Positions 1,589 to 23,319 of a stretch of 64,000 bases of DNA are shown in pieces. Made by a program: the position numbers and the translations under genes. The notes beneath the pieces are model-generated. The model was not told the DNA's origin. It saw only the letters and a program-made list of their open reading frames with translations, and made no database searches. Within the stretch, counting starts at the first letter, position 1, and each line of letters begins with the position of its first letter. The stretch is from Pseudomonadota bacterium (lineage in GTDB: Bacteria > Pseudomonadota > Gammaproteobacteria > Pseudomonadales > Moraxellaceae): contig JAJZBU010000009.1 in the NCBI GenBank assembly GCA_021851865.1, positions 1-64,000 on the forward strand, in the 5' to 3' direction.

Positions 1589-2704
1589 TCAGTGTCGTGG
1601 CGTTGGTGCCTCGAGGCCGGCGGCGCGCAGCTGCTGCATGAGCAGGTCGGTGTAAGCGCTCTTATCGTGGCGGTCGAGGTGGGAGTCGTCGGGGCAGAGA
1701 AAACCTTCCTGTAGAGCGAGGTCGTCGATGCGCAGGGCCGGTGCCTGCACGCGACTGACCAGCAGGTTCCAGAAAGAGGGGCGCGGATTCTGCTCCTCGA
1801 TGTAGTCGCGCACCAGGCCGCTCGTCGGTGAGACGATGAGGGCGACCCAGCCGCCGCGTTGCTGGATGGCATGGATCTCATCGTTCAATCGCGCGATGTT
1901 GTGCAGATAAGCGGCGTTGCTATGTGCCGGCAGGTGGGCGATATACTCGGCGAGAGTGTGCTTGACGAGGGGCCAGGGGATGCGCGGGTCATAGTCGATT
2001 TCAACGCCCAAGGTGGAGCCCATGCGGTACAGATAGAATTGCGGTTCCGGCAGGCGTTGGTAGTCGGCGTCGACCGAGCGATTGTGTTGCACCAGCAGAT
2101 ACTGCACCACCGGATGGCGGGCGAGAATGCGATGGGTGAGGGCTGACCACGGCCTCGAACCGTCGGCGTAGGCGCGCAGGTGCGAGCGCACGAGGTCCTG
2201 CAGGCGGTCTTCCATGCGCGTAAAGCGCGGCCAGGGGTGGGCGCGATCCTCCTCGAAGTCGTGCTCCCAGGCGGCGGCGATGCTGTCGGTGGTATGGTGG
2301 CGAGAGCCGTCGATGAGATCGTCGTTGAAGTCGATGATGAGCTTGCCGTGAAAGTCGCGGTCCTGAGCCAAGCCGCGCAGGATGGGCAGGAAGGAAACGC
2401 CGTCGATGGCCAGCTGCACCGGTTCGAGCTCGGGCATCTGGCGTTCCATTTCACTCAGGTCGGTGTCGAGGAGGATACGCGAAGCGCCGATCATGACCAG
2501 GGCGCGTGAGCCCAAGGCATCGGCGCGGGCGCGCTCGTGCAGCCAGAGGCTCTCGCTGTCTTCCTGGTTGGGGCGTATGCCGCGCGCGGCGAGGCCGAGC
2601 TCGAGTGCCAGCACGGTGAGCAGAAAGAGCAGAAAGGCGCTCTGCAGGGTGGCGAGCAGGGGTGTCGAGGGCAGTCGGTCAGAACTGAAAGTAGATGAAG
2701 GCAT
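1589..2704 (-). CDS. SGNH-like membrane-anchored protein paired with an MBOAT
   Basis: 371-aa protein with one N-terminal membrane anchor (about residues 17-40) and a large, presumably periplasmic domain. The anchor is followed by LVMIGASRI, which fits the first SGNH block, and near the C-terminus comes DDSHLDRHD, like the closing DxxH of SGNH/AlgJ-type enzymes. The block I Asp of GDS is replaced by Ala (GAS), so catalytic competence is uncertain. The start overlaps the 3' end of the upstream MBOAT gene by 26 nt, implying translational coupling. MBOAT plus SGNH-like pairs usually move acyl (often acetyl) groups onto exported polysaccharides, and that is the likely role. Substrate unknown. Confidence 0.6.
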   Translation of the reverse strand: MPSSTFSSDRLPSTPLLATLQSAFLLFLLTVLALELGLAARGIRPNQEDSESLWLHERARADALGSRALVMIGASRILLDTDLSEMERQMPELEPVQLAIDGVSFLPILRGLAQDRDFHGKLIIDFNDDLIDGSRHHTTDSIAAAWEHDFEEDRAHPWPRFTRMEDRLQDLVRSHLRAYADGSRPWSALTHRILARHPVVQYLLVQHNRSVDADYQRLPEPQFYLYRMGSTLGVEIDYDPRIPWPLVKHTLAEYIAHLPAHSNAAYLHNIARLNDEIHAIQQRGGWVALIVSPTSGLVRDYIEEQNPRPSFWNLLVSRVQAPALRIDDLALQEGFLCPDDSHLDRHDKSAYTDLLMQQLRAAGLEAPTPRH

Positions 2705-4079
2705 GCTCGTCCCCTCCGGAGAACAGATAGAGTGAGATCAGGGCGCCGGCGATCAGGCCGCTTTGCAGCCAGGATGGACAGCGCTGAAAGATCTCCTCGA
2801 GGTGGCTCTGTCGCGCCAGGTATTGAAAGGTGAAAATACCGAGCAGGAGCAGGGGAATGAAGAGGCGGGTCAGTGTATCCAGGTGGGCGGACGCCGGCAC
2901 GTTAGCGAAGAGATGGTGCAGGATGTCGAACATCTGCGTCGTGCTCTTCGCCCGGAAAGGAATCCAGAGCAGGGTGACGATGAACGTGGTGAGCAGGATG
3001 GCCGGTAGCCGTGCCGGAGCACCCTGACGGCCGAAGAGACGGCGTTCGGCGGCAAGACAGAGACCGTGCAGTGCTCCCCAGGCGACGAACATCCAGGAGG
3101 CGCCGTGCCAGAGGCCGCCGATGAGCATGGTGAGGAAGAGATTGCGGTAAGTCTTGAGCGGCGTCAGGCGATTGCCACCCAAGGGGATGTAGAGGTAGTC
3201 GCGCAGCCAGGTCGACAAGGAGATGTGCCAGCGCCGCCAGAAGTCCATGAAGCCGCTGGCAGCGTAGGGAAAGTGAAAGTTGTCGGGGAAGGCGAAGCCG
3301 AAGCAGAGGGCGATGCCGATGGCGCACAACGAATAGCCGGCGAAGTCGAAGTAGATCTGCCCAGCGAAGGAGGTGCAGGCCAGCCAGGTGTCGAGGCTGC
3401 CAAACTGCTGCAGGTTGGCGTAGACCTGGTTGGTGACGGGGGCGAAGGCGGTGTCGGCGAGCACCGATTTGCAGAACAGTCCGAAGATGAGCAGGATGAG
3501 GCCCCAGACGATCTGCTGCTGGGTCGGCTGGCGCGGCTCTTCGATCTGGGCGAGCAGGACCTTGGCGCGCAGGATGGGGCCGGCGACGAGGTGGGGAAAG
3601 AAACTGACGAAGAGGGCGTAGTCGGCCCAAGATGCGCGGGCGTGGATCTCACGCCGGTAGACGTCGATGGTGTAGGACAGAGAGGCGAAGGTGTAGAAAG
3701 AGATGCCGACCGGCAGCACCCAGCCGACATCCGCGGGTAGATGCGCCTGCCAGACTGGGGGCAGCAGCCAGCGCAGGTTGGCGAGAAAAAAATCGGTGTA
3801 TTTGAAAGCCCCGAGCAAGCCGAGGTTGGCGCTCAGGCTCGCGATCAGCAAGGTCTTGCGCCAGGGAGCGGAGGTGGCGCGATCGATGCGGCGGGCCAGC
3901 CACCAATCGACGCTGGTCGAGGCCAGGAGGATCAGGGTATAGGGGGCGTACCAGGCAGCATAGAAGGCATAGCTGCTCAGCAGCAACCAGCGCTTGCGCC
4001 AGGTCCAGTCATGCATGAGCAGGTAGATGGGCAGGACGAGGGCAAAAAAAACAAGAAAAGTCAGTGAATTGAAGAGCAC
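2679..4079 (-). CDS. MBOAT-family O-acyltransferase (AlgI/DltB-like)
   Basis: 466-aa polytopic inner-membrane protein of the membrane-bound O-acyltransferase family, which passes acyl groups across the membrane to surface polymers. It opens LFNSLTFLVFF and carries the family signatures GISFYTFASLSYTIDVYRR, FWRRWHISLSTWLRDYLYIP and GGLWHGASWMFVAWG, including both conserved His residues. I chose the GTG at 4079 because AAGGA lies about 8 nt upstream and family members normally start at this point; a longer GTG-initiated frame (from 4121) adds 14 residues with no SD. The downstream SGNH-like gene overlaps it and is its probable partner. The acceptor polymer cannot be named because no glycan genes are visible nearby. 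Confidence 0.88.
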   Translation of the reverse strand: MLFNSLTFLVFFALVLPIYLLMHDWTWRKRWLLLSSYAFYAAWYAPYTLILLASTSVDWWLARRIDRATSAPWRKTLLIASLSANLGLLGAFKYTDFFLANLRWLLPPVWQAHLPADVGWVLPVGISFYTFASLSYTIDVYRREIHARASWADYALFVSFFPHLVAGPILRAKVLLAQIEEPRQPTQQQIVWGLILLIFGLFCKSVLADTAFAPVTNQVYANLQQFGSLDTWLACTSFAGQIYFDFAGYSLCAIGIALCFGFAFPDNFHFPYAASGFMDFWRRWHISLSTWLRDYLYIPLGGNRLTPLKTYRNLFLTMLIGGLWHGASWMFVAWGALHGLCLAAERRLFGRQGAPARLPAILLTTFIVTLLWIPFRAKSTTQMFDILHHLFANVPASAHLDTLTRLFIPLLLLGIFTFQYLARQSHLEEIFQRCPSWLQSGLIAGALISLYLFSGGDEHAFIYFQF

Positions 4080-4201
4080 GAGAGCATCCTTGAAACGCAG
4101 CCATGTATGAAGTCGACGCACGCGGCGGGCATCGCTGCTGCATCATAGAAGGCTTTGACGATGCTGGCTAGCTGCGCTGATTTCAGGCGCTGATTTCGAG
4201 G

Positions 4202-4256: not shown

Positions 4257-4332
<76 letters not shown>

Positions 4333-4456: not shown

Positions 4457-4789
4457 TCATGCCGGCGGCTCAATGCGGTCAAGCCCCACGTTGTACCGCT
4501 GCCGCATGGCCTCGGTGCGATGGCCGGCGATGGTCTTGTCTGACGCTTCAGTCAGCCCCTTTCGTTTCAGGTCGTGCAGCGTCCACCAGGTCGACGCCAG
4601 GCCGGAATCATCCATCCGCGCCTTCACGCGCTGCATGGCGGTGTCCAGGGTATCCTTCTTCAATGGCCCGCCGCCGGCATTCAGGATCAGGTGAAGTCTC
4701 AGCGTCCGGTGCTGCGCCAGGGCTCCCTCGACGGGTGTCACCCTACAGGTGAGTGCGTGCGCCAGATCTTTCAAAAACTTCTGGCTCGC
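4457..4789 (-). pseudogene. Tyrosine recombinase (phage-type integrase), C-terminal remnant
   Basis: About 110 codons are readable on the minus strand. They match only the C-terminal part of a tyrosine recombinase: TLHDLKRKGLTEAS corresponds to the HxLR block (Arg changed to Lys in HDLK), and IAGHRTEAMRQRYNV holds the GH and the nucleophile Tyr. An in-frame TAA at 4790-4792 cuts the frame upstream, and no core-binding or SAM-like domain follows in any frame. It lies beside tRNA-Thr, the usual position for an integrase. It is most likely the decayed integrase of an island and is not expected to be active. Confidence 0.75.
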
Positions 4790-5033
4790 TTATTCGACGA
4801 GTGGCAAGTTTGGAAAATTTATATTTTTGGAATTTAAAGGTTAAAAACAGGTAGTTGCAAATTTCCCTAGACAGGGTGATGGTGACGGACATCTCTATGC
4901 ACATACACCAGTGTTGCTGACCTCGTGCACGACCACTATGATTCATATAACGGTTTTCATGGAGCGCTACCGAGCACCGTGCGGTACGGTGGCTGGGTGA
5001 TGACTGAGCGTCGCCATTGCTGAGGTGAGGAAG

Positions 5034-5246
5034 ATGAGCAAATGGATTAGGAGTATGGCGAGAGGTGTCGCCACGTTCACCATCGTTCATCGCCCATCGT
5101 ACACGATAGACGATAGGCAAACAGACAGTGACTTGGAGGCTCTTGTCGGTGATTGGCATCGCGTTGGCAATGACATCAAGGTTTCCATGAACAAGGCTGA
5201 GCCCGAGATCAATTCGGGTAGAATTCGCAAGGCCATGAATGGCTAG
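5034..5246 (+). CDS. Small conserved-looking protein upstream of DUF2335
   Basis: 70-aa soluble protein with an acidic C-terminal half containing LVGDWHRVGNDIKVSMNKAE. I recall similar short ORFs with a DW..VG.D motif just upstream of DUF2335 membrane protein genes, which is the arrangement here. The ATG at 5034 follows GAGGTGAGGA (SD core 5022-5025, 8 nt spacing). Its 3' end overlaps the DUF2335 reading frame by 8 nt, a sign of coupling. Base composition is more AT-rich than the neighbours, as expected in an island. Function unknown. Confidence 0.55.
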   Translation: MSKWIRSMARGVATFTIVHRPSYTIDDRQTDSDLEALVGDWHRVGNDIKVSMNKAEPEINSGRIRKAMNG

Positions 5247-5697
5247 TAAGCCTCGTGGGCAAAGCACCCGCACTAGCCAAAAGGGAGGCAACGCTCTTCA
5301 AAAAGAGAGTCATCTTCAGGGAAATAAGAATGAAGTATCTGTGAATTATGCAGAGTAAAGATGGCCAATTCCGCATGCTTTTGAGATGGAAAAGTATGAA
5401 TCCATCCTTTCGGGTGCAGCCGATAGAATCATCTCCATGGCGGAGCAAGAGCAAAAGCATCGTCACTCGATGGAGCAGTGCAGGCTGAGCGCGCAAGTTA
5501 ACGCCAATCAGCTTGCTGCGCGTGAGGTTCGGCGCGGGCAGTGGATGAGTCTTTTTGTTGTCATCGTTATTGCGTTTCTGGCCGGATATGCCATCTACAC
5601 GGACCATGCGATTCTTTCGGGTGTTCTCGGGGTGGGCGATCTGGTCTGGATTGTTTACCTATTTATTAACGGCAAGAACGGCAAAGCGCCGAAATAG
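5239..5697 (+). pseudogene. DUF2335 membrane protein gene interrupted by an in-frame TAA
   Basis: Read from the ATG at 5239, the frame gives 39 codons (MASKPRGQSTRTSQKGG...), an ochre stop at 5356-5358, then continues unbroken in the same frame to 5697. After the stop, IPHAFEMEKYESILSGAADR and SMAEQEQKHRHSME are the signature of the DUF2335 family. A membrane helix pair (SLFVVIVIAFLAGYAIY and GVLGVGDLVWIVYLF) and a basic tail follow. Family members normally have about 40-60 residues before the PHP..L..YE motif, so the upstream 39 codons are the natural N-terminus and the TAA is a nonsense mutation. Alternatively the 103-codon frame from ATG 5386 may be used, but I see no good SD there. Function of the family is unknown. 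Confidence 0.7.
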
Positions 5698-7251: not shown

Positions 7252-7477
7252 GATCGGCTCTCTGGCGAGGAAGGTTAATCTACCGGTCACCTGATCGCCT
7301 GTCCAGCCGCGCGGGTGTGGCGAGCAGTGATGACGTGTTGCCGCTGCCATGTCGCGCGTAGATCTTGGGCTGCTGCCAAGCGCGTGTTGGCCTATGGTAA
7401 GGTAGGCCTCGTTGTCGTGGCGGTTCCAGGGATCGCGAGAGCCGATCAAGCGCGACGATATAGCCAGGAATCCGCTC

Positions 7478-10228
7478 ATGCCGCAAACCACTTCCCCCTT
7501 CGTCATGCCCGCCGGGCGATTGATCCTGACCGCCAGCCAGCGCCAGAGGCGAACCCTGATCGAGCAGTTGACCGGCGCGGCCGTGCAGGCCGGAGCTCTG
7601 GCGCTGCGCTCGCCAGAGGTCGCTACCCTCGATGAGTTTTTGCAGTCCTGGCTGGATCGGCAACTGTTCAGTGGTGAGCTGCCGGCGGTTTTGCAGAGGG
7701 CTTTGGTCTTGTCGCCGCGGCAGCAGGAGTGGCTCTGGCAACGCGCGATAGCGGAGGTGGAGATCAAGGATCGGCTGCTCTATCGCGACGGGCTGGTCGC
7801 TCAGGCGCAGACGGCAGCAGAGTGGGTCAGCGCCTGGCAATTGCAGGTGCCCGCCGCTGCGGAGACGCGGGAGTATCGCGCCTTCAAGCGCTGGGCGGCG
7901 AAGTTTCACGAGCTTTCTGAAAGCGTCACCCCGGGTGTTCAATGGTTGTCTCCGGGCGAGCTGATGTCGGCGATCACGGCGGCGGTGCCGGCGACGCGCG
8001 CGACTTGGCCGCAGCGGCTGGCGCTTTTCGGTTTTGAGGAACTGACGCCGCAGCAAAACGCGCTCATCGCGGCTTGGCGCGAGATCGGCGTCGATGTCGA
8101 GGAATTGCATCCAGAGGCGCCGCCGGCGGCGCGTGTCAGTCGGGTGGGCTATGCCGATACGCGCAGCGAGCTCTATGCTGCGGCGCGCTGGGCCAAAGCC
8201 GAGATGGCTGCCGGCAAGACCCGCATCACCGTCGTGGTGCCGCAGTTGGCCGCCTTGCGCCCGCTGGTGGAGGAGATCTTCGACGCCGTGTTGCATCCAG
8301 AGGCGCGTTATACCGCCACATCGGGTGGCCGCGACTACAATCTGTCCCTGGGGTTGCCGCTCGCCAGTCAGCCGATCATCGCGACGGCGCTGGCCCTGCT
8401 CAAAGTCACCTACAGTCCAGCGACCTTCGAGCAGCCGTTGTTCTGGTCGTTGCTGCGTTCACCTTACTGGTCGGCGGCGTTCGACGAGTCGGCCGGGCGG
8501 GCGCGGTTGGAAGCAGATGTGCGCGAGTGGTTGCCGCGTTCGGTGTTTTTGGTGCATCTCAAGGGGCGTGCAGATCACCATCGCGATCTGCCGCAGTTGC
8601 ACGCACACCTGTCGACGATGATCCGCCATCGCGTCGAGGCCTACCAGCAGCTGGGGCAGCAGCCGCCCTCGGTGTGGGCCGAGCTGTTCCTCGCCACCTT
8701 GCAGGAAAGCGGGTGGCCAGGCCAGCGCACGCTCAGCTCGGTCGAGCACCAGGCTCAGGAAGCCCTGGTCGCGCTCTTGGCGCACGAGTTTCCTGCCATC
8801 GAGCCGCTGGGCGCGACCCTCGACATCGCCGCCGCCCTGAGCGAACTCACGCTTGCCGCCGAGCACCAACTATTTCAGCCACAGACGGAGGGCGCGCCAC
8901 GCCTGCAAGTCCTGGGTTTGCTTGAGGCCATCGGTATCGGCAGTGAGGCCATCTGGGTCAGCGGCATGGATGATGCCTCCCTGCCTGCACCGGCACGGCC
9001 GCATCCTTTGTTGCCGGCAGCGATACAACGTGCAGCAGGCATTCCCCACGCTTCGGCGGAGCGCGAGCTGCAGTTCTCCCGACAGCTGCTGGATCATCTA
9101 CAGCGCTGTGCTCCGACCTTGATTTTCAGCTACCCGCTGCGTGATGGCGACAAAGCCCTGCGACCTTGCCCACTGATCGTCGGCTATCCGGAGCGACAGG
9201 AGAAAGAGGAGTCGCCCTATTTTGCGGTGACGAATGTGCCGCTGGAATCCCTGCACGACGTCCGCGGTCCGGCGGTGCCGGCGCATGAGCCTCTGTCGGG
9301 AGGCACCGAGCTGCTCAAGAGCCAGGCTATTTGTCCGCTCTGGAGCTTCGTCCGTTATCGTCTTGGCGCCGCTCCCCTGGGGCAACCGGTCGACCAGCTC
9401 GCCGCCAACGATCTCGGCAATATCTACCACTTGGCCTTGGCGCAATTCTGGACGAAGACGGCCACACATCAGCAGCTGCTCAAGCTGATGGGCGAGGGTG
9501 CGCTGGAGTCAGAGGTGGCGACGGCGGTGCATGAGGCTTTTGAGCAGGCCAGCCTGCGTCGGCCGATACCCCTGGGGAGCGTGCTGCAAGCCTGCCTGCA
9601 GGGAAAGCTCAGCGCTGATCTTTTGGCTTGGCTGCAGAGCTGTGAGGTGCCGCGTCAGCCTTTCGAGGTGAAGGAGGTAGAGCAGCGACGCGAGATCGAG
9701 CTCGCGGGCATACGCATCAAGACCCGGGCCGACCGCATCGATCAGATCCTGCCGAAAGACGGTCTCGTCGTTATCGACTACAAGACCGGCTCCAGCGATC
9801 GCTGGAAGAGCTGGCGCGAGAAGCGGATCAGCGAACCGCAGGTGCCGCTCTACTGCGTCGACCTCATCGCCAGCGGTGAACAGGTGACCGGCGCCGCCCT
9901 GGCGGGACTGCGCTGGGACAAGGGCAAGCTCGATGGTTTTCAGGGCGTGACCGAGAACGACGGAGTCTTGCCCGATGTGTTTTCCTTGGCTACGAATCTC
10001 GCCGCGCGATTCTCGGTCTTCGACGCCCAGCTCCACCCGAACTGGAAGACTTTGTTGGCGTTTTGGAATGAAGCACTCGTCGCTCTGGCGCGTGAGGTTG
10101 CGGAAGGCGAGGCCAGTCTGCGCGTGCGCCGCCTGGCGGATCTCGCCCATTGTCCGGTCAAGCCGGTGCTGCGGCTACCAGAGCTGGAGCGCTTTCTCTC
10201 CGATTTGAATGAAGGGAGCCTGCCATGA
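7478..10228 (+). CDS. AddB-like DNA repair nuclease (PD-(D/E)XK)
   Basis: 916-aa protein of the family annotated as probable DNA repair protein, partner of an AddA/RecB-like helicase. The N-terminus (GRLILTASQRQRRTLIEQL) resembles the inactivated helicase start of AddB proteins. The C-terminal nuclease has RADRID, then GLVVIDYKTG (catalytic Asp and Lys), then SEPQVPLYCVDL with the conserved Gln/Tyr. I see no obvious four-Cys iron-sulfur arrangement flanking it. The ATG at 7478 has CAGGAA about 8 nt upstream. The stop overlaps the start of the helicase gene by 4 nt (ATGA), so the two are translated together. Probable role: double-strand-break end resection. Confidence 0.8.
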   Translation: MPQTTSPFVMPAGRLILTASQRQRRTLIEQLTGAAVQAGALALRSPEVATLDEFLQSWLDRQLFSGELPAVLQRALVLSPRQQEWLWQRAIAEVEIKDRLLYRDGLVAQAQTAAEWVSAWQLQVPAAAETREYRAFKRWAAKFHELSESVTPGVQWLSPGELMSAITAAVPATRATWPQRLALFGFEELTPQQNALIAAWREIGVDVEELHPEAPPAARVSRVGYADTRSELYAAARWAKAEMAAGKTRITVVVPQLAALRPLVEEIFDAVLHPEARYTATSGGRDYNLSLGLPLASQPIIATALALLKVTYSPATFEQPLFWSLLRSPYWSAAFDESAGRARLEADVREWLPRSVFLVHLKGRADHHRDLPQLHAHLSTMIRHRVEAYQQLGQQPPSVWAELFLATLQESGWPGQRTLSSVEHQAQEALVALLAHEFPAIEPLGATLDIAAALSELTLAAEHQLFQPQTEGAPRLQVLGLLEAIGIGSEAIWVSGMDDASLPAPARPHPLLPAAIQRAAGIPHASAERELQFSRQLLDHLQRCAPTLIFSYPLRDGDKALRPCPLIVGYPERQEKEESPYFAVTNVPLESLHDVRGPAVPAHEPLSGGTELLKSQAICPLWSFVRYRLGAAPLGQPVDQLAANDLGNIYHLALAQFWTKTATHQQLLKLMGEGALESEVATAVHEAFEQASLRRPIPLGSVLQACLQGKLSADLLAWLQSCEVPRQPFEVKEVEQRREIELAGIRIKTRADRIDQILPKDGLVVIDYKTGSSDRWKSWREKRISEPQVPLYCVDLIASGEQVTGAALAGLRWDKGKLDGFQGVTENDGVLPDVFSLATNLAARFSVFDAQLHPNWKTLLAFWNEALVALAREVAEGEASLRVRRLADLAHCPVKPVLRLPELERFLSDLNEGSLP

Positions 10229-13200
10229 CGGCGATTCGTGATGCCGCTGAGCGTGAACGCGCCCTCGCCGTCGAACAGTCGTTCATCATTCAGGCGCCTG
10301 CGGGGTCGGGCAAGACCAGTTTGCTGACGCAACGCTTTCTCGGTCTGCTGGTCAGCGTCGATCGCCCCGAGCAGATTCTGGCCATCACCTTCACCCGCAA
10401 GGCCGCCGGTGAGATGCAGCATCGCATCATGGCGATGCTGGAAGACGCCGCCGCCGTACTCGCCGAAGATCGCCCCGAGCCGACGAACGAGCACGAGCAG
10501 CGTGCGCATGCGCTGGCGACGGCAGCCCTCCGTCACGCCCAGGCGAGGCGCTGGGGGCTGCTGGAGAATCCAGCCATGCTGCGGGTGCAGACCATCGACG
10601 CCTTCTGTGCGTCCCTGGTGCGACAGATGCCGCTGTTGTCGCAGATGGGCTCGACTTTGGAGCCGGCCGAGCGGCCCGAGGTCCTCTACCTGCAAGCCGC
10701 GCGCAACACCCTGGCGCAGATCGAGGCCGGGGATGATGTCGCCGCGGCGGTACAGACTCTGCTCGCCCACCTCGCTTTCAATGTCGAGAAACTGGAGGCG
10801 CTCCTGGTCGGCTTGTTGGCCAAGCGTGATCAGTGGATACGCCTGTTGGCGCCGCTATGGCAGGATGTCCGCGGTGATGCGCCATTGAGTGACCCTTTGC
10901 GCGAATTCTTGCAAGGGAGTCTGGCGGCGATGGTGCTGGGGAATCTGGCGACAGCAGCGAAACTCGCTAGCCATCTGCAGCCGCTACGGCCTTTCATTCA
11001 ATACGCCGCCGGTCATCGCGCAGAGCATGCGGCGCTGACTGTTCTTGCCGCCTGGGACGGATATTTCAGCGGCGGCATCGCTGATCTGGCCATCTGGCGT
11101 GCGCTGCGTCAGTGGCTGCTCACCCAAGATGGTGCGGTGCGCAAGAGGCTCACCCAGGCGGAGGGGTTCCCCGCGGCGAAAGACGGCGGTACACCGGCGG
11201 TGAAAGAAAACTGTCTCGCTCTCCTCGCCGCCCTGCCGGCGACGGTGGTCGAGGCGCTGCGGGCGAACGCGGCTCTGCCGGATCCGGCCTATCCGGAGCA
11301 TGATCTCGCCGCCATCGGCGCGCTGCTGGTGGTCTTGAAGCAGGCGGCGCTGGAACTGATGCTGGTGTTTGCGTCGGCCGGTGCGGTGGACTTTGCCGAG
11401 ATTCAAGGGCGCGCCCTGCTGGCGCTCGGTGACGACTGCGATCCCAGCGATCTGGCCCTGAGCCTGGATTACCAGCTGCGCCACCTCCTGGTCGATGAAT
11501 TTCAAGACACCTCGCATGCCCAGTTTCATTTGCTGGAGAGGTTGACCGCTGCCTGGGTGCCGGGAGACGGACACACCATCACCGTGGTCGGCGATCCCAT
11601 GCAGAGTATCTATCGCTTCCGCGAAGCGGACGTCGGTCTGTTTCTCAAGGCGCAGCAGAGCGGCATCGGGCATCTGCCGCTCGAGTCCCTGGTGTTGCGC
11701 GCCAATTTTCGTTCGACGGCCGGCATCGTCGACTGGAACAACGCCACGTTCGCACGGGTCTTTCCCGCCACCAGCGACATCGCCACTGGCGCGGTCAGCT
11801 ATTCCCGCTCGGATGGCGTCAAGCCGGCGGATACAGCGGCCCCGGTCACCGTCTGGCCTTATTATGGTCTGCCGGGCGAGAGCGAAGCTGCCGACATTCT
11901 CGGTATCCTGCGCGACGCGCAGCGAACAGCGGGGGAGAGCGTCGCTATTTTGGTGCGCACCCGTAATGACGTGGTCGACATCGCGCACGAATTGCGCCAG
12001 CACGGCGTGCCCTACCGCGCCGTCGAAATCGAACGCTTGAGCGGACGTCAATCCATCCAGGACATGATGGCGCTGACCCGGGCTCTGCTGACTCTGGCCG
12101 ATCGCATCCATTGGTTGGCCATTTTGCGCGCCCCCTGGTGCGGTCTGACTCTGGTCGATCTGTTCGCCCTGGTCGGCGCGCAGGACGCCGTCAAACGAAC
12201 GGTCTGGGAGCAGATGAACCGCGCCGAGGTCATCGCCACCTTGAGCGCTGACGGGCAACAGCGTCTGGCGCGCGTGCGCGCGGTCGTGGCTGGCTTGTTG
12301 GCGGAGAGCGGTCGCCTCTCCTTGCGTCAGCAGGTCGAGAAAGCCTGGTGGCAGCTGGGTGGCGATCGGCTGTTGCAAAGCGCGGCGGAGATGCAGGACG
12401 CCATGACCTTCTTTGCCCTCCTCTCCGCCTTGGAGACGCGGGGCGGTCTCGATGAGGCGAGTTTCGATGACGAGGTAGACCGTCTTTTCGCGACGCCGGA
12501 AGCGGCGCCAGACATCGTCGAAATTCTGACCATCCACAAATCGAAAGGACTGGAGTTCGACACCGTCATTCTGCCTGGGCTCGGTCGTCGGCCACGCGCC
12601 GAGGACCCAGCTCTGCTGTTGTGGGAAGAACTGGCACAGGCGGAGCGCGCCGATGCCGGCCTGCTCCTGGCCCCGATCCGGCATGCGGCGACCGCCGACA
12701 GTCCGATCTATGAATACATCGCCGTGCTCAAGCAGGTGAAGGCGCAGCATGAAGCCGTACGCTTGCTATACGTCGCGGCGACGCGGGCGAAGCGCCGGCT
12801 GCACCTGCTGGCGCGCGCCAACCTGAGAGCTGACGGTGAAGTCAGTCCCACCCAGGGATCGGGTCTGGCGCTGTTATGGCCGGCCCTGGCAGCGCACTTC
12901 ACGACCGCTCCCGCGGAGGAGACCGAAGAGCGCGAATGCGAACGCACTTTGGCATGGGCGGATCTGCCGGTGCCGCCGCTACGCCGCCTGCCGCTGTCGA
13001 CGTTCGCCGTCTTGCCCGCCCTGCCGGCAGCGCCGCCCCTTGCCCGTATCAGCGCTGTCCCATCACCGATCACGACCAGCGATCATCATCGCGTCCTGGG
13101 CATCGTCGCGCATCGTCTGCTCGAGGAGTTTGCGCGTCAGGGCTTGGCGGCTTGGTCCGGGGACCGTTTGCGAGCACAGCGAGCACAACTGGTCCATCTG

Positions 13201-13578
13201 CTGACGCGGCATGGGCTGGTCGGTGATCGCGAGGCCGCCGTCGAGGAACTCATCGACTTGCTCGCCGCCTGCTTGGGTGAAAACCGATTTCGCTGGATTT
13301 TTGATCCGGCGCATGTGCTGTGGCCTGAGTTCGAGGTCCTGATGCCGGACGAGGGTGTGCTCCGCCGGCGTCGTCTCGATTTGCTGTTCCGGGACGGAGA
13401 TGGAGTGCACTGGATCGTCGACTGGAAGTCCGATTATGGCCATTTTGATGATGAGTCCCTGGTGCGCGCGCATAGCGAGCAGCTACAGCGCTACCGCACG
13501 GCGATTCAGTCGCTGGCGCCGGGACTTGTGCGCGCCGGCGTCTATTCTTTGCATCAGGCGCGCTTTGTGGAAATGTGA
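10225..13578 (+). CDS. AddA/RecB-like UvrD-family helicase-nuclease
   Basis: 1117-aa superfamily 1A helicase with every motif in order: Walker A QAPAGSGKTSL (about residue 27), Ia AITFTRKAAGEM, II LLVDEFQDTSHAQF, III VVGDPMQSIYRFREAD, IV LRANFRST, V ILTIHKSKGLEFD, VI RLLYVAATRAKRRLHLLA. The C-terminus carries a RecB-type nuclease, with RRRLDLLF and then HWIVDWKSDYG, the Asp and Lys of the active site. It forms an overlapping pair with the AddB-like gene. Together they should resect DNA ends and load RecA. I call it AddA-like rather than RecB because no RecC- or RecD-like gene is present here; the exact subfamily needs a tree. Confidence 0.85.
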   Translation: MTAIRDAAERERALAVEQSFIIQAPAGSGKTSLLTQRFLGLLVSVDRPEQILAITFTRKAAGEMQHRIMAMLEDAAAVLAEDRPEPTNEHEQRAHALATAALRHAQARRWGLLENPAMLRVQTIDAFCASLVRQMPLLSQMGSTLEPAERPEVLYLQAARNTLAQIEAGDDVAAAVQTLLAHLAFNVEKLEALLVGLLAKRDQWIRLLAPLWQDVRGDAPLSDPLREFLQGSLAAMVLGNLATAAKLASHLQPLRPFIQYAAGHRAEHAALTVLAAWDGYFSGGIADLAIWRALRQWLLTQDGAVRKRLTQAEGFPAAKDGGTPAVKENCLALLAALPATVVEALRANAALPDPAYPEHDLAAIGALLVVLKQAALELMLVFASAGAVDFAEIQGRALLALGDDCDPSDLALSLDYQLRHLLVDEFQDTSHAQFHLLERLTAAWVPGDGHTITVVGDPMQSIYRFREADVGLFLKAQQSGIGHLPLESLVLRANFRSTAGIVDWNNATFARVFPATSDIATGAVSYSRSDGVKPADTAAPVTVWPYYGLPGESEAADILGILRDAQRTAGESVAILVRTRNDVVDIAHELRQHGVPYRAVEIERLSGRQSIQDMMALTRALLTLADRIHWLAILRAPWCGLTLVDLFALVGAQDAVKRTVWEQMNRAEVIATLSADGQQRLARVRAVVAGLLAESGRLSLRQQVEKAWWQLGGDRLLQSAAEMQDAMTFFALLSALETRGGLDEASFDDEVDRLFATPEAAPDIVEILTIHKSKGLEFDTVILPGLGRRPRAEDPALLLWEELAQAERADAGLLLAPIRHAATADSPIYEYIAVLKQVKAQHEAVRLLYVAATRAKRRLHLLARANLRADGEVSPTQGSGLALLWPALAAHFTTAPAEETEERECERTLAWADLPVPPLRRLPLSTFAVLPALPAAPPLARISAVPSPITTSDHHRVLGIVAHRLLEEFARQGLAAWSGDRLRAQRAQLVHLLTRHGLVGDREAAVEELIDLLAACLGENRFRWIFDPAHVLWPEFEVLMPDEGVLRRRRLDLLFRDGDGVHWIVDWKSDYGHFDDESLVRAHSEQLQRYRTAIQSLAPGLVRAGVYSLHQARFVEM

Positions 13579-18450: not shown

Positions 18451-19800
18451 TCATGATAGTTCAGAAGACCGCGCTTGCGTACGCCGACTGATGCGGCGCA
18501 GTTCGTAGAGCATGCTGATGGCGACGCTGCCGAGGCTGAAGACGGCAGCGATCCAGAAGCCGATGGCGCCGAGATGGGGGAGGAGGCGATCGCTCAGGCC
18601 GAGCATATAGCCGCCACCGAGGCCCAGTCCCCACAAGCCTAAGGTGTAGATGAGCATGGGGATGATGGTGTGCTGATAGCCGCGCAAGGCGCTGACCGCG
18701 ACCACCTGCACGGCGTCGGCGAGGTGATAGAGGGCGACGGCCATGATCAAGCGACTGGCCAGCGCTTGCACCTGTGGGTCTGGTGAGTAGAAAGCGGCGA
18801 TCCGCGTCGCTAGCAGCGCGAGGCCAAGGCTGACCGGCAGGGCGCAGAACAGGGCCAAGCGCAGCGCCTGCAGGGCGTAGCGTCGCGCCGCATGCGCATC
18901 GGCGCTGCCGAGAGCCTGGCCGATGAGCAGGGTGCTGGCGGTGCCGACGGCCATCGGCCACATGTAGGCGAGGACGACGAGATTGGCGGCGATCTGATGC
19001 GCCGCCGCAGCGATCGGACCGAGGCGGGCGATGAGCAGGGCCATGAGGGTGAAAGCGGTGAGATCGGCGATGAAGGTGAGGGCGATGGGCAAGCCGATGT
19101 GCAGGATGTCCTTCATGCCGGCGGCATCGGGCAGGGCTGGGCGCCAACTGCGCCATAACGGCGCCAAGTCGCTCTGGCGTAGCAGCCAGAACAAGGCGCC
19201 GGCGCAGAGCAGCCAGGCGTCGAGGGCGGCGGCCAGGGCACAGCCGGCAGCGCCCTGGCCAAGACCGCGCATGCATAGGAGGTTGAACGCAGGTTTCAGG
19301 GCGAGATAGATGAGATTGACCAGCATCACCGGGCGTGGGCGTGACAGCCCGGAAAACAGACCCATGAACAGGCGCAGCAGCAATGTTGCCGGCACCCCCC
19401 AGGCGCTGGCGTGCAGATAAGAGATGACCTTGCCGTTCAGGCGCGCCGGCAGATGGGCGAGGCCGACCCACGTCGCCGGATGCCAGAGCAGGCTGATGGC
19501 AAGCAGACTCAAGAGGACGACCCAGGACAGACCCTGCGCGATCTCGCGCCCGATACCCGGCATGTCGCCGGCGCCAGCGTGGTGTGCGATGAGCACGGGC
19601 AGGGCCATGAGCAGGCTGGCGACGACCATGGTGATGGTGGTCTGCAGCGACGAGGCGACGCCGAGGGCGGCCAGATCGAGCGTCGACAGATGGCCGGCCA
19701 TGAGGGTGTCGATCAAGCCACTCGCGACCATCGCCATCTGCGCCACATAGAGCGGCGCCGCCAGTTGCAGCAGAGCCTTGTAAGGGCGCTCTCGCGGCAT
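18451..19800 (-). CDS. MATE-family multidrug/toxin exporter (NorM-like)
   Basis: 449-aa inner-membrane protein with 12 helices. LLQLAAPLYVAQMAMVASGLIDTLMAGHLS is the usual MATE helix 1 segment read in two parts, and a second half begins ILHIGLPIALTFIADL, as expected from the internal duplication. MATE proteins export cationic drugs or metabolites using sodium or proton gradients. ATG 19800 is preferred; a GTG at 19812 overlapping the upstream stop is an alternative. The gene is tightly packed behind a small membrane protein gene and ahead of the methyltransferase, so it might export the product of those enzymes. That link is inference. Confidence 0.85.
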   Translation of the reverse strand: MPRERPYKALLQLAAPLYVAQMAMVASGLIDTLMAGHLSTLDLAALGVASSLQTTITMVVASLLMALPVLIAHHAGAGDMPGIGREIAQGLSWVVLLSLLAISLLWHPATWVGLAHLPARLNGKVISYLHASAWGVPATLLLRLFMGLFSGLSRPRPVMLVNLIYLALKPAFNLLCMRGLGQGAAGCALAAALDAWLLCAGALFWLLRQSDLAPLWRSWRPALPDAAGMKDILHIGLPIALTFIADLTAFTLMALLIARLGPIAAAAHQIAANLVVLAYMWPMAVGTASTLLIGQALGSADAHAARRYALQALRLALFCALPVSLGLALLATRIAAFYSPDPQVQALASRLIMAVALYHLADAVQVVAVSALRGYQHTIIPMLIYTLGLWGLGLGGGYMLGLSDRLLPHLGAIGFWIAAVFSLGSVAISMLYELRRISRRTQARSSELS

Positions 19801-19804
19801 GCGC

Positions 19805-20053
19805 TCAGTCACGCCAGCGCAGATAGACGATCACGCACAGTGCGCCGCCGATCAGATAGAGCCAGAGGGTGTCGCTGACCAGCATGGGGTAGAGCATGAT
19901 CGCCCAGGCGAGGGCGCTGAGGTCAGAACGGCCACGCCGCCGCACCATGCGCCAGATGACGAAGCCGATGATGCTGAACAGCAGGTTGGCCCATAACGCC
20001 GCCGGTGAAGGTAGGCTGAGTCCCATGGACTGTAGGTTCTGCAGGGCGTCCAC
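19805..20053 (-). CDS. Small conserved membrane protein (82 aa)
   Basis: Two membrane helices, LWANLLFSIIGFVIWRMV and LWLYLIGGALCVIVYL, separated by a loop with AWAIMLYPMLVSDT. This pattern (PS.AAL.WNLLFS.IGF, then YP..V.DT...Y.IG) is common to a small proteobacterial family of unknown function. The GTG at 20053 has GGAGAG about 6 nt upstream and gives 82 residues; an ATG at 20026 without an SD would give 73. Its stop lies next to the MATE gene start, so the two are probably coupled. Confidence 0.65.
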   Translation of the reverse strand: MDALQNLQSMGLSLPSPAALWANLLFSIIGFVIWRMVRRRGRSDLSALAWAIMLYPMLVSDTLWLYLIGGALCVIVYLRWRD

Positions 20054-20107
20054 GTGTGCTCTCCGTGCTGCTGGAAAGCGCATGTTGCGACATGCGCGCC
20101 GGTGTGG

Positions 20108-20776
20108 TCAAGAGTGAACTGGCCAGGACTCCAGCGCATGCACTTCGAAGCGTCGCCGCAGCGTTTCTGGAAAGAGGATGGAGTAGCCTTGCAGGTGCAG
20201 CTCATCGACGTTGTGCAGGCGCATTTGCAGTCGCTTCTGCAGGATCATCGGCGTGATATAGACGACGGCGTCGATGACCTTGGCGTAGAGCAATTCGGCG
20301 TAGGCGTCACAGGCCTGCTGATAGCGCCAGCTGGCTTTGATGAACAGCTCCAGTTCGAGCGCCAGGCGCCGGCCGCGCGGGCAGGTGAGCAGGGCGTCCG
20401 GGATCTTCTGCCAGAGCTCGGGCTGCAGCAGGCCTTGTGCATGGCAGTGGCGTGCGCCGCGCCAGTCCTGGTAGCCGTGCCGCGACGCCGCCAGCCGTAG
20501 ATTCTGCAGCCCGAGATGATGATCGAGGCGCAGGGGCGATAAGCGCCGTCGCCGGCCAGCGCCGAGGCGACGGGCCGCGGCGGCGCTCAGGTCCCATAAC
20601 GACAAGGGTTCGGGGTGATAGCGATACGGCTGGGCGCGAATCTGCCCCTGTTGCTGTAGCGCCTGCAGGCCTGCGGCCAGATCCTCGGGCGGGCAGGTGA
20701 GATGGGCTGCGAGCAGGGACGTCGAGCTTGGCCCCTCGTCGGCGAGATAGCGCAACAGCGCGTCATTCAGATTCAT
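20108..20776 (-). CDS. MOBC / Replic_Relax-like protein (putative relaxase)
   Basis: 222 aa. The N-terminal 60 residues look like a winged helix (DALLRYLADEGPSSTSLLAAHL). After an Arg-rich linker come DHHLGLQNLRLAA, then DWRGARH, KIPDALL, LALELELFIKASWRYQ and YAELLYAKVIDAVVYIT. A His-containing helix, a PDA turn and an ExE strand followed by a Lys and a Tyr are features of the replication-relaxation family, which includes the MOBC relaxase MobC of plasmid CloDF13, an enzyme with a restriction-nuclease-like fold. Its start overlaps the stop of a coupling-protein gene by 4 nt, matching the mobB-mobC pairing of that plasmid. Family assignment is a motif judgement; nicking activity is inference. 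Confidence 0.5.
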   Translation of the reverse strand: MNLNDALLRYLADEGPSSTSLLAAHLTCPPEDLAAGLQALQQQGQIRAQPYRYHPEPLSLWDLSAAAARRLGAGRRRRLSPLRLDHHLGLQNLRLAASRHGYQDWRGARHCHAQGLLQPELWQKIPDALLTCPRGRRLALELELFIKASWRYQQACDAYAELLYAKVIDAVVYITPMILQKRLQMRLHNVDELHLQGYSILFPETLRRRFEVHALESWPVHS

Positions 20777-22257
20777 GCGTCCTCCTCAAAACGCGCCAGA
20801 TCGGGGCGACAGCGCGAGTCGGGCGTGGCGATCGGCTGCCATGCACGGCGTGCGCACGGCCAAGCGCTTTGCGTCAGTTCGCGGGCGCGACCATGACCGT
20901 AGAGGACGGCCATCCGTGCGGGCAAGTGCAGCAGGGTCGTGGCGCTGATCAGCGGGCCGGATGCTTCCTGCTCACCATCGATCACCGGATCGGCCAAGCC
21001 TGGCCAGTAACGCGCGTGTTGTCGTCGCTGTGGCACCTGACCGCTCTTGCGCGCCAGCCACTCGGCGGTGTCCGGATCCTGCAAGCGAAAGACCAGTTTG
21101 AGGGCGCAGTTTTCGTTGACGGCGGCGGCGACGGCGGTGGCGTTGAGATCGCCGGGACCGGCAGCGAGATCGCCGAGGGACTGATGCGCCAAAATGAGAT
21201 GGACGCCGCGATCGCGTATCGTGCTCAGGGCGTCGAGGCTGCCCCGACAAAGGTGATAACGAAACTCATCGAGGATGACGCAGCAGGGCCGTTCGGGCGG
21301 GCGTGCCTGCGCTTCGGCGCTTTGGATCAGACGCAAGAGGACGATGCGTTGCAGGCGCCTTACGGTATCGAGACGGGTGGAGCCGAGAATATAGCAGGCA
21401 TCCCCTTGCGCGAGCAGGTCGCTCATCCTGGGGCCGGCCAGCCCCTGGCCGGCGGCGATACTGGCGATCTCCTCCAGGCGCAGACACAGGGCCGGCGCTT
21501 TGCGCCGCAGGGGGGCGATGGCGCGTGCCGTCAGCGAGGCCAGGGTATCACCGGGGCGCCAGGCTTCGGCGAGCAGACGCGCACCCTGGCGGTCGGCGAG
21601 GCGGTAGAAGTCGGCGTCACTGCCGCTCTCGAGCAGATCGAGACCGTGCAGGAGAAGGTCGTAGAGGCGGTGGGGGTCACAGCCTTCGATGAGATTGAAC
21701 TGGGCCGGAGCCTGGGGGCGTAGATCGAGCACATGAAAACGGCGGCCGCAGTGCGCGGCGGCGGCGGCGAGGGCGGAAGCGGCCCAGAGGTCTTCCTTGG
21801 GGTCGAAGTAGATGACGCTCTCACCTTGGGCGAGGGCCTGTGCCGCGAGGACGCCGAGCGCCGCAGATTTGCCGCAGCCGCTGCCGCCGATGACCTGAAG
21901 ATGGGGGAGAGGCCCGTTCAGATAGCAGGGTTCGCCGGCGTCGAGGCCGAGCATCCAACCGCGCTGTGGATCGAGCAGTGGCCGTGGGTCGTACGTGGTC
22001 GCCGGCGTGCGAGCGAGATCCTGGCGCACGTCGCTGGCCGGCAGCCAGGCAGATGCCCGCCCGCGATAGCGCCAGATCGCCAGCAGCAGAACGAAAAGAT
22101 AGAGCAGCATGGGCAGGCGCAGCCCCTGCCAGAGGAGCCAGGGTAGGGGCAGGCTCAGCAGCAGGATGAGCCCGGGTGCCGGCGGTGCGGTCGAACGCCG
22201 GAGTCTGGTGCTGGCGAAAAGAAGAAGGCTCATGGCGACAGGCTGCGCCTGCGCCAT
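20773..22257 (-). CDS. VirD4/TraD-like type IV coupling ATPase
   Basis: 494 aa. Two N-terminal membrane helices (about residues 27-62) are followed by a RecA-like motor. Walker A is QVIGGSGCGKSAALG (about residue 125), VIYFDPKEDLWAA is the conserved strand seen in TraD/VirD4 proteins, Walker B is CCVILDEFRYHL, and ILAHQSLGDL is the sensor region. Coupling proteins feed relaxase-bound DNA into a type IV secretion channel. No channel gene (virB-like) occurs in the window. The gene overlaps the MOBC-like gene by 4 nt. It may be a relic of a mobilisable plasmid, or a DNA pump doing something else on the chromosome. ATG 22257 was kept although its SD is poor; ATG 22233 is possible. Confidence 0.78.
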   Translation of the reverse strand: MAQAQPVAMSLLLFASTRLRRSTAPPAPGLILLLSLPLPWLLWQGLRLPMLLYLFVLLLAIWRYRGRASAWLPASDVRQDLARTPATTYDPRPLLDPQRGWMLGLDAGEPCYLNGPLPHLQVIGGSGCGKSAALGVLAAQALAQGESVIYFDPKEDLWAASALAAAAAHCGRRFHVLDLRPQAPAQFNLIEGCDPHRLYDLLLHGLDLLESGSDADFYRLADRQGARLLAEAWRPGDTLASLTARAIAPLRRKAPALCLRLEEIASIAAGQGLAGPRMSDLLAQGDACYILGSTRLDTVRRLQRIVLLRLIQSAEAQARPPERPCCVILDEFRYHLCRGSLDALSTIRDRGVHLILAHQSLGDLAAGPGDLNATAVAAAVNENCALKLVFRLQDPDTAEWLARKSGQVPQRRQHARYWPGLADPVIDGEQEASGPLISATTLLHLPARMAVLYGHGRARELTQSAWPCARRAWQPIATPDSRCRPDLARFEEDA

Positions 22258-22293: not shown

Positions 22294-23256
22294 CTAGCCT
22301 GCCTGCCAGTGATCGCAGGTGATCAGGCCGGTGGTGTGCGCCGCCTGCAGGCGCGACTCCGCCAGGGTCATCAGGTCTTCCGGTGAAGGCGGCTCCAGCG
22401 CCGCATCGCTGGCGACGATGTTGAGCGTCGTCTTCAGCGACAAAAAGCCGCCCGTGGTCTTGTAGGCCTTGAGGTTGAGACTTTCATGCAGACGGCGGTA
22501 GCTCTGCACATTGCAGTGGTCGATGCTGGGTTGGTGCGTGATCACGGCGAACTGGTGCGGGGCGATGCGCGCGACGATGTCGAGCGGGCGCACCAACTGT
22601 CGCAGGCGGCGTGCCGAGGCGACGATGAGCTGGCTGATGACCTGGGCATTGTGCTGCTTGCGCAGGGATTCGAGTTGGGTCATGGTGATGAGCAGATAGC
22701 AGCAAGCGCCGCCGCGTGAGGCGCAGTGACGGATGGTGTCGCCGAGGCGTGTGAGGGCGTAGGAGCGATTGCCGAGGCCGGTGAGCGCGTCGAGCGAGCT
22801 CAGTTTCTTGAGTTTGGCGTTGGCTTCGATCAGGCTCTGATTTTCGCGCAACAGGCGGTTCTGCAGGGCGCTGAGGCGCTCCGCCGCCCACAGTCGCGGC
22901 AACAGCTGTTCATTCATCAGAGACTTGTTGAGAAAATCATCGACGCCTTGCTCAAAGGCGTGCTGTAACGCTTCTCCGCCTTCGCGCGCGGTCAGCAGAA
23001 GGACGTAGGTGAAATGATTGTTTGCTTCGTCGAGCTGGCGCACCGACTGGGTCAGCGCCAAACCGTCCATCTCGGGCATCAACCAGTCGGCGATGACGAT
23101 GCTCGCCGGCCTCTCTTCGAGGAGCTGTAAGGCGGAGCTGGCCGAGCTGGCCTGACGGACATCGGTGTAGCCGGCACTTTTGATGACGCGATGGATCATG
23201 ACGCTGGAAAAGCGGGCGTCGTCGACGACGAGAATGGAGGTGTCGGTATAGGCCAT
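22294..23256 (-). CDS. Response regulator with degenerate GGDEF domain
   Basis: 320 aa. An N-terminal receiver (about residues 5-125) has ILVVDDARFSSVMIHR with the acidic pocket, VIADWLMPEMDG with the phospho-acceptor Asp, TAREGG and the NKS Lys. A coiled-coil linker (RLLRENQSLIEANAKL) joins it to a GGDEF fold that keeps SSLDALTGLGNRSYA. The active loop, normally (G/S)GDEF, reads IAPHQF, so cyclase activity is unlikely. The ATG at 23256 has AGGAAT upstream. It probably works as a phosphorylation-controlled protein-protein or c-di-GMP-independent module. It stands alone, with no kinase next door. Confidence 0.8.
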   Translation of the reverse strand: MAYTDTSILVVDDARFSSVMIHRVIKSAGYTDVRQASSASSALQLLEERPASIVIADWLMPEMDGLALTQSVRQLDEANNHFTYVLLLTAREGGEALQHAFEQGVDDFLNKSLMNEQLLPRLWAAERLSALQNRLLRENQSLIEANAKLKKLSSLDALTGLGNRSYALTRLGDTIRHCASRGGACCYLLITMTQLESLRKQHNAQVISQLIVASARRLRQLVRPLDIVARIAPHQFAVITHQPSIDHCNVQSYRRLHESLNLKAYKTTGGFLSLKTTLNIVASDAALEPPSPEDLMTLAESRLQAAHTTGLITCDHWQAG

Positions 23257-23319
23257 GGATGATTCCTGTCGGACGAGCTGCGAAGTCATTTTTATCAGGG
23301 CGCTGCTCGGGGCGCCACC

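Follow-up and report, generated by a model that had tools for sequence, protein, structure and literature searches.

Conjugation genes normally lie together in one cluster, an arrangement that keeps the element that carries them mobile. Scattered conjugation systems were described as relatively rare in proteobacteria outside the Rickettsiales in a 2011 survey (PMC3158045), and the layout of origin of transfer (oriT), mobB and mobC, in this order, is reported for CloDF13-like elements (PMC2262945), where MobB is said to assist relaxation (PMC7431656). MOBC relaxases are related, according to one review, to PD-(D/E)XK restriction enzymes (PMC12857230). Among chromosomal systems, the gonococcal genetic island encodes a tra-type secretion system with a coupling protein and a relaxase, and single-stranded DNA is reported to pass through it to the medium, where it can feed transformation (PMC12857230, PMC8716806); the archaeal Ced system is described as a domesticated, chromosomally encoded conjugation apparatus that handles cellular DNA (PMC9905601). 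Here, we describe a gene pair encoding a type IV coupling protein (T4CP) and a MOBC-type relaxase in a 64,000-nucleotide (nt) stretch of a Pseudomonadota bacterium (assembly GCA_021851865.1, contig JAJZBU010000009.1, positions 1 to 64,000; hereafter, the window), together with an operon for an F-type type IV secretion system (T4SS) found elsewhere in the same genome (G000). The pair and the operon probably constitute a split system for DNA transfer that is inherited, the pair of which would be the nicking and coupling end, with the F-type channel encoded at another place on the chromosome; that the two act together is what we infer from the findings below.

The T4CP, a VirD4/TraD/MobB-like coupling ATPase of 494 amino acids (aa) with an ATG start (20773..22257, minus strand), matches PF02534 (e-value 7e-10), PF12696 (4e-9) and PF10412 (2e-8), all above the Pfam cut-offs, as well as TIGR03743 (SXT_TraD, 2.5e-16), the latter with a score far below the model cut-off. 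The nucleotide motifs are intact in the predicted protein: a Walker A motif (GGSGCGKS, residues 124-131; 21865..21888, minus strand), in which G127, G129 and K130 are invariant in 19 aligned T4CPs, and a Walker B region (residues 324-332; 21262..21288, minus strand), in which D330 and E331 are invariant in 19 aligned T4CPs. Two hydrophobic stretches were recognised by eye within about residues 28-64, and a search of solved structures by sequence returned short stretches of DotL, TrwB and FtsY. The relaxase gene (222 aa, ATG start; 20108..20776, minus strand) overlaps with its start the T4CP stop by 4 nt (20773..20776, minus strand); the coordinates and the T4CP domains agree with the initial annotation, which had reported a VirD4/TraD-type ATPase and a relaxase-like gene overlapping in this manner. 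The overlap is likewise 4 nt in the related genomes G001, G002 and G004 and is 1 nt in G030 and G019.

Residues 5-217 of the 222-aa protein align to the NCBIfam model NF041423 ("MobC family replication-relaxation protein") with an e-value of 3.1e-27 and 95 bits against a curated cut-off of 200; on this yardstick, an integrative-element member (268 bits) and an Acinetobacter plasmid member (211 bits) both pass, and four F-type-linked relaxases reach 45-57 bits. The initial annotation had called the protein Replic_Relax-like and pointed to PF13814; the likeness is borne out by the MobC profile, the motif and a structural model, but PF13814 itself gave no Pfam match at an e-value of 1 or below, and NF041423 placed the protein instead. 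Sixteen positions are invariant among 25 aligned relaxase relatives, including H86, Q91, W105, P126-D127, E141, E143, K147, R151, Y152 and Y173. The PD-(D/E)xK catalytic core (P126 D127 ... E141 x E143 ... K147; 20336..20401, minus strand) is invariant in these 25 members, and its residues are also kept in 23/23 of a set that includes the four F-type-linked relaxases.

The AlphaFold2 model of the whole relaxase has a predicted local distance difference test score (pLDDT) of 94.1 and contains a winged-helix domain at residues 1-74 (20555..20776, minus strand) with MarR-like matches (Z up to 11.8, root-mean-square deviation (rmsd) 1.5, 71 aligned residues). Because the Foldseek list for the whole protein was filled by winged-helix matches, residues 78-222 were modelled alone (pLDDT 94.8). 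This nuclease-domain model matches AF1548, of unknown function (Z 9.0, rmsd 3.6, 110 aligned), the Pyrococcus repair endonuclease 2vld (8.8, 3.0, 102), EndoMS (8.6, 3.3, 108), EcoO109I (7.8, 3.8, 126) and N.BspD6I (7.1, 3.9, 117), where values within 1 of each other count as tied and a Z of 7 to 8 can reflect a common arrangement. With Foldseek alone, EcoO109I comes first at an e-value of 1.2e-3 and no match lies below 1e-3; searched by sequence, solved structures gave one chance-level match (0.61). Since an RNA polymerase subunit scores equally high against the same model (two rows, Z 8.1 and 8.0), it is the conserved motif rather than the fold score that carries the case for a nuclease. The protein is, by sequence and model, a MOBC-family relaxase with the catalytic residues of the family, and is predicted to nick DNA. 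Profile, model, motif and gene order together back the mobB-mobC-like partnership that had been proposed for the pair.

The pair had also been called an orphan. This holds for the window, in which no T4SS gene was seen (the ORFs, open reading frames, were read by eye and part of them scanned), but not for the genome, where an F-type T4SS operon of 17 genes occupies positions 169123-184459 of another contig (C34). The order is pilin-like gene, TraL, TraE, TraK, TraB, TraV, an unknown 268-aa protein, TraC, TrbI, S26 peptidase, TraW, TraU, TrbC, TraN, TraF, TraH and TraG. TraC exceeds the equivalog cut-off of TIGR02746 (604.7 vs 567.05), and TraL, TraE, TraK, TraB, TraV, TraC, TraU, TrbC, TraN (scanned in part only), TraF, TraH and TraG exceed Pfam cut-offs; TraW, TrbI and the pilin have matches only below curated cut-offs. 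A call of mating-pair formation type F (MPF_F) takes at least 5 type genes in one cluster, as given in the 2011 survey (PMC3158045), and at least this number is present in G000 by Pfam and NCBIfam models rather than CONJscan profiles. No relaxase or T4CP was recognised within the 17-gene operon. The VirB4 profile TIGR00929 has a match in 6 of 9 genomes (the eight carrying the pair, described below, and G029), G000 among them, none over the cut-off; because this profile also matches 8 of 14 control genomes, the operon was examined directly.

The T4SS contig is chromosomal, as far as its sequence indicates: 5,010 bp about 4 kb from the operon match the congener G002 at 87% nucleotide identity. 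G004, G005, G019, G020 and G030 carry these T4SS genes in an identical order over the length that their contigs cover. Genes flanking these operons, judged by eye, look like core genes, and no integrase was seen there; in G004, traG is followed at a distance of about 17 kb by an IS200-type transposase. At the end of the T4SS contig, an ORF taken by eye for an insertion sequence transposase gave no Pfam match, and a response regulator beside the T4SS in G000, tried as a flank marker, was uninformative. The contig of the pair, 72,856 bases long, extends 20 kb to one side of it and 50 kb to the other; with the operon on a different contig, at least 20 kb separates the two loci.

Among 58 related genomes, the relaxase query matches 9 and the T4CP query 14; in the larger set of 348 family genomes, a T4CP match is present in 17, eight of these at e-values below 1e-80. 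The eight close matches cover, in the 58-genome sample, 3/3 genomes of the window's genus (g1), 3/3 of g3 and 2/2 of g4, and the unmatched genomes of the 348 being partly listed, further g3 or g4 members without a close T4CP are possible. The nine weaker matches are in G029 and G258 (g2), six genomes of g15, and G021. In all eight genomes with a close T4CP the relaxase gene adjoins it; contig ends cut the T4CP of G020 and the relaxase of G019, and the matched region of G001 contains one TAA and begins ahead of the T4CP frame. T4CP and MobC genes stand together in 34 of 35 loci scanned (7 from the clade of the pair), and in the other, L062, the T4CP runs to the contig end.

TraC was found at e-values below 1e-200 in 6 of the 348 family genomes, all six among the eight with a close T4CP. 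These six (G000, G004, G005, G019, G020 and G030) have one T4CP match each, that of the pair; the same query reaches the plasmid-type T4CP of G051 (8.9e-26). G000 has no MOBH, MOBF or MOBP match, MOBQ, MOBV, MOBT, MOBB and MOBM not having been searched for, and MOBP matches are present in G001, G029 and G030.

The pair is under purifying selection and has the base composition of its host. Its GC content at third codon positions (GC3) is near the median of the other ORFs on the stretch in g1 (0.75-0.79 vs 0.76-0.77) and in g4 (0.48-0.50 vs 0.50, with one other ORF in G020), and within about 0.06 of the other ORFs in g3. Between G000 and its nearest congener G002, the ratio of nonsynonymous to synonymous substitution rates (dN/dS) is 0.27 for the relaxase and 0.15 for the T4CP, next to 0.03 for a neighbouring GGDEF gene and 0.18 for a neighbouring MATE exporter gene; with both frames open, these values uphold the earlier impression that the genes show no decay. 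Between G019 and G030, dN/dS is 0.10 for both genes, and for most deeper genome pairs the synonymous rate (dS) is undefined or saturated.

In a T4CP tree of 23 sequences, the eight form one clade (100/99), with g1, g3 (96/97) and g4 each held together; the relaxase tree agrees at lower support (93/96 for the eight, 84/90 for g3), an earlier 15-row tree having left g3 unresolved. The T4SS tree groups the genomes as the T4CP tree does, with g4 together, G004 with G019 and G030, and G000 outside; the deepest fork has support of 87-91 in two analyses and is open in the 23-sequence analysis. Pairwise distances correlate at 0.94 between T4CP and TraC and at 0.89 between relaxase and TraC, compared with 0.99 for the linked TraB and TraC.

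The mature pilin is identical at 68-71 of 72 residues per pair among five genomes of the three genera (L072:9124-9402; homologues in L074, L075, L078 and L142), and the third-position identity of the same genes is 0.40-0.58, with dS undefined or above 1.2; TraC is 43-59% identical between the genera. The pilin seems to be under very strong selection. Because it is conserved over largely randomised third positions and TraC has diverged to this extent, the operon seems old in the group, and G000 does not seem to have received it recently from a sampled relative.

A T4CP-MobC module as such is already known from CloDF13-like plasmids and integrative elements and is common. Of 72,556 plasmid records, 839 match the relaxase query, 2 of them over at least 80% of its length, and 1,229 match the T4CP query; this second set surely contains other coupling proteins as well. 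The module plasmids that were opened are from Klebsiella (MOBC) and Acinetobacter (non-mobilizable), along with two MOBC plasmids with VirB-type genes, one of them from V. vulnificus with an additional gene between T4CP and mobC. The pair shares with the CloDF13-type MobB-MobC module the T4CP-then-relaxase order, the tight spacing, the profile family and the catalytic residues; it differs in that no plasmid genes or integrase were seen nearby, in its own clade and host-like composition, and in its shorter T4CP (469-512 aa in seven complete ORFs of g1, g3 and g4, compared with 573-640 aa in most module T4CPs). In the Methylotenera loci L043 and L044, a phage-type integrase lies about 2 kb upstream of the pair, which is followed by large ORFs of unknown role. 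G029 (g2) has two T4CP-MobC copies, one (L019) near a phage-type integrase and the other (L018) with a reverse-transcriptase ORF downstream. Among viral contigs, 68 pattern matches included none with a relative of the T4CP.

For TraU, the best-matching plasmids, the three opened out of at least 5,000 matching records, are from V. alginolyticus (NZ_CP110672, 50%), V. cholerae (NZ_CP043555, 46%) and Bermanella (NZ_CP051184, 45%). These three plasmids and G051 have the same channel order in one stretch, with TraC 35-37% identical, and all four carry a T4CP of the same family and a MOBC-family relaxase that matches the MobC profile at 6e-12 to 1e-15 and keeps D127, E141, E143 and K147 but not Y152; MOB-suite assigns both Vibrio plasmids to MOBC and classes the Bermanella plasmid as non-mobilizable. 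The likeness covers the channel gene order between pilin and TraG with its S26 peptidase, as well as the relaxase family and the T4CP family, whereas the plasmids hold everything in one locus with partition or replication genes and G000 has two chromosomal places and a pair from another branch. A MOBC relaxase with an F-type channel exists on plasmids, and what differs here is the split chromosomal form with a pair of the other branch. The gonococcal island, a chromosomal tra-type T4SS with coupling protein and relaxase, differs, as compared by description rather than by sequence, in having a MOBH relaxase and ParA/ParB on one island, in place of a MOBC-like relaxase and split loci. Ced, compared in the same manner, shares the domestication on the chromosome and differs in being an archaeal DNA import system. 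In the titles and abstract openings of the literature searched, no description of a split pair and channel was found.

In the proposed mechanism, the relaxase would nick one strand at a chromosomal origin and the T4CP would dock the product on the F-type channel, after which chromosomal DNA would leave in single-stranded form via the pilus to a neighbour, or to the medium; the order of nicking, coupling and export is taken from conjugation in general, the present data providing the parts. The apparatus would be domesticated and inherited by three related genera, probably of the Moraxellaceae in a wide sense, with a channel resembling that of MOBC-bearing F-type plasmids and a pair resembling mobB-mobC of mobilizable elements. 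Relaxase and coupling genes that are unlinked from the channel make it difficult for such a machine to mobilise itself, and a benefit to the cell would be what maintains it. We tentatively consider it possible, short of likely, that conjugation has here become an inherited cell function in three genera, a split F-type machine that donates chromosomal DNA and combines a plasmid-type channel with a mobilizable-element relaxase module, its pilin frozen by selection. DNA-release systems are few, those named in one source being the gonococcal island and one in Haemophilus influenzae (PMC13046425); if chromosomal DNA is exported, the present system would join them or represent an inherited mating system resembling that of high-frequency-of-recombination (Hfr) strains.

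Several observations weigh against a split DNA-transfer system. Two of the three g1 genomes, G001 and G002, contain the pair and have no TraC, TraU or VirB4 match; both are metagenome assemblies (92% and 97% complete), for which binning loss and true absence are not separated. Conversely, weaker TraC matches (4e-93 to 2e-6) occur in 12 other family genomes without a close pair. Shared descent would by itself produce the same agreement of trees and distances, and the eight related genomes do not count as independent cases. The pair clusters with modules of CloDF13 type and of integrative mobilizable elements (IMEs), apart from the T4CP-MOBC branch of F-type elements, and because of this placement it is not the original partner of the channel. 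The T4SS operon of G000 is AT-rich (GC 0.437 vs 0.624 in the window), which can mean separate arrival; tilS and two genes beside it in G000 also have low GC (about 0.50). With tilS as a flank marker, the region is rearranged in G002, and the stretch after tilS there has no T4SS. In G004, DDE transposase ORFs flank the pair on both sides within 1.2 kb (L015:5904-6767 and 11271-11651). A check for oriT-like repeats near the pair or before the T4SS operon found none convincing, only short ones or ones inside coding sequence, which is in line with the initial annotation and is not proof of absence.

Because of G001 and G002, where the pair occurs with no T4SS detected, the strongest rival is a captured mobilisation module that hitchhikes occasionally, nicking its own or a nearby origin and using any T4SS, resident or of a visiting plasmid, so that the link to the operon would be opportunistic. 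The relatives of the pair are indeed mobilisation modules of integrative elements and plasmids, and MobB of CloDF13 is reported to function with the R388 channel (PMC7431656). We nevertheless regard this explanation as unlikely, given the host-like GC3, the purifying selection and a clade that follows the genera. Furthermore, the surroundings of the pair in g1, g3 and g4 showed no integrase (ORFs by eye, some flanking ORFs of g3 and g4 by Pfam, with contig ends limiting G020 and G019), unlike L019, L043 and L044, which have phage-type integrases near the pair. CloDF13-like elements have their oriT upstream of mobB, where the pair leaves little room, with 36 nt to the preceding gene in the window and 1 to 184 nt in the 7 of 8 genomes where this gap is measurable; an oriT elsewhere is possible.

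Instead of DNA, the F-type T4SS might export protein or act as a contact-dependent secretion device, the pair having an unrelated DNA-processing role. In the 2011 survey, a co-localised relaxase was missing from almost half of the chromosomal T4SSs, which may therefore be carriers of protein (PMC3158045), and both the distance between the two loci and the two genomes with the pair and no detected operon would fit; however, the relaxase keeps its catalytic positions, the T4CP of the pair is the sole match in six T4SS-bearing genomes, and the closest plasmid relatives of the channel, among those examined, carry a MOBC relaxase, which makes a protein exporter distinctly improbable. A defence-type pump, with the ATPase moving or stripping invading DNA and the nuclease cutting it, is very hard to sustain, as the ATPase matches the PADLOC model mad8 (8.9e-17) but the relaxase has no PADLOC match, the five proteins scanned (the pair and its small membrane protein, MATE and GGDEF neighbours) gave only weak others (PtuA at 0.036 for the ATPase, PDC-M60B at 9e-5 for the response regulator), and the gene pair recurs as a mobilisation module. 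Of the explanations first offered, the one that fits best is a device for DNA export, with a captured mobilisation module feeding it, and the defence pump keeps one PADLOC match, to the ATPase. The mad8 model, which matches the gene at 20773..22257, may also pick up coupling ATPases.

Downstream of the pair and on the same strand, as the initial annotation had noted, are genes for a 92-aa small membrane protein (19805..20083, minus strand), with no family match within curated cut-offs in Pfam or NCBIfam, and a MATE exporter (18451..19812, minus strand; PF01554, 1.3e-45); a methyltransferase gene is in line with them. Upstream, the gene for a response regulator-GGDEF protein (22294..23289, minus strand; PF00072, PF00990) ends 36 nt before the T4CP gene and keeps this place in 3/3 g1 genomes. 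The neighbours are constant in g1 and different in g3 and g4, where a START-domain protein, PrpF, aconitase, ketopantoate reductase and APS kinase are encoded; among the loci compared, g1 alone has the MATE exporter next to the pair. Given this change of neighbours from one genus to the next, neither the small membrane protein nor the MATE exporter is likely to be a component of the system. The changed surroundings in G004 may be explained by its DDE transposase ORFs.

Elsewhere in the window, two adjacent type IV pilin genes (PF00114; 366-872 and 1016-1564) lie near an MBOAT acyltransferase gene (2679-4121). An AT-rich stretch (4743-5607, GC about 0.50), a few hundred bases from a tRNA-Thr gene (4257-4332) and possibly an old insertion, contains an ORF (4743-5291) without a Pfam match. 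At 7412-13578, two large adjoining genes encode a PD-(D/E)XK nuclease-domain protein and a UvrD-type helicase, an AddAB-like pair.

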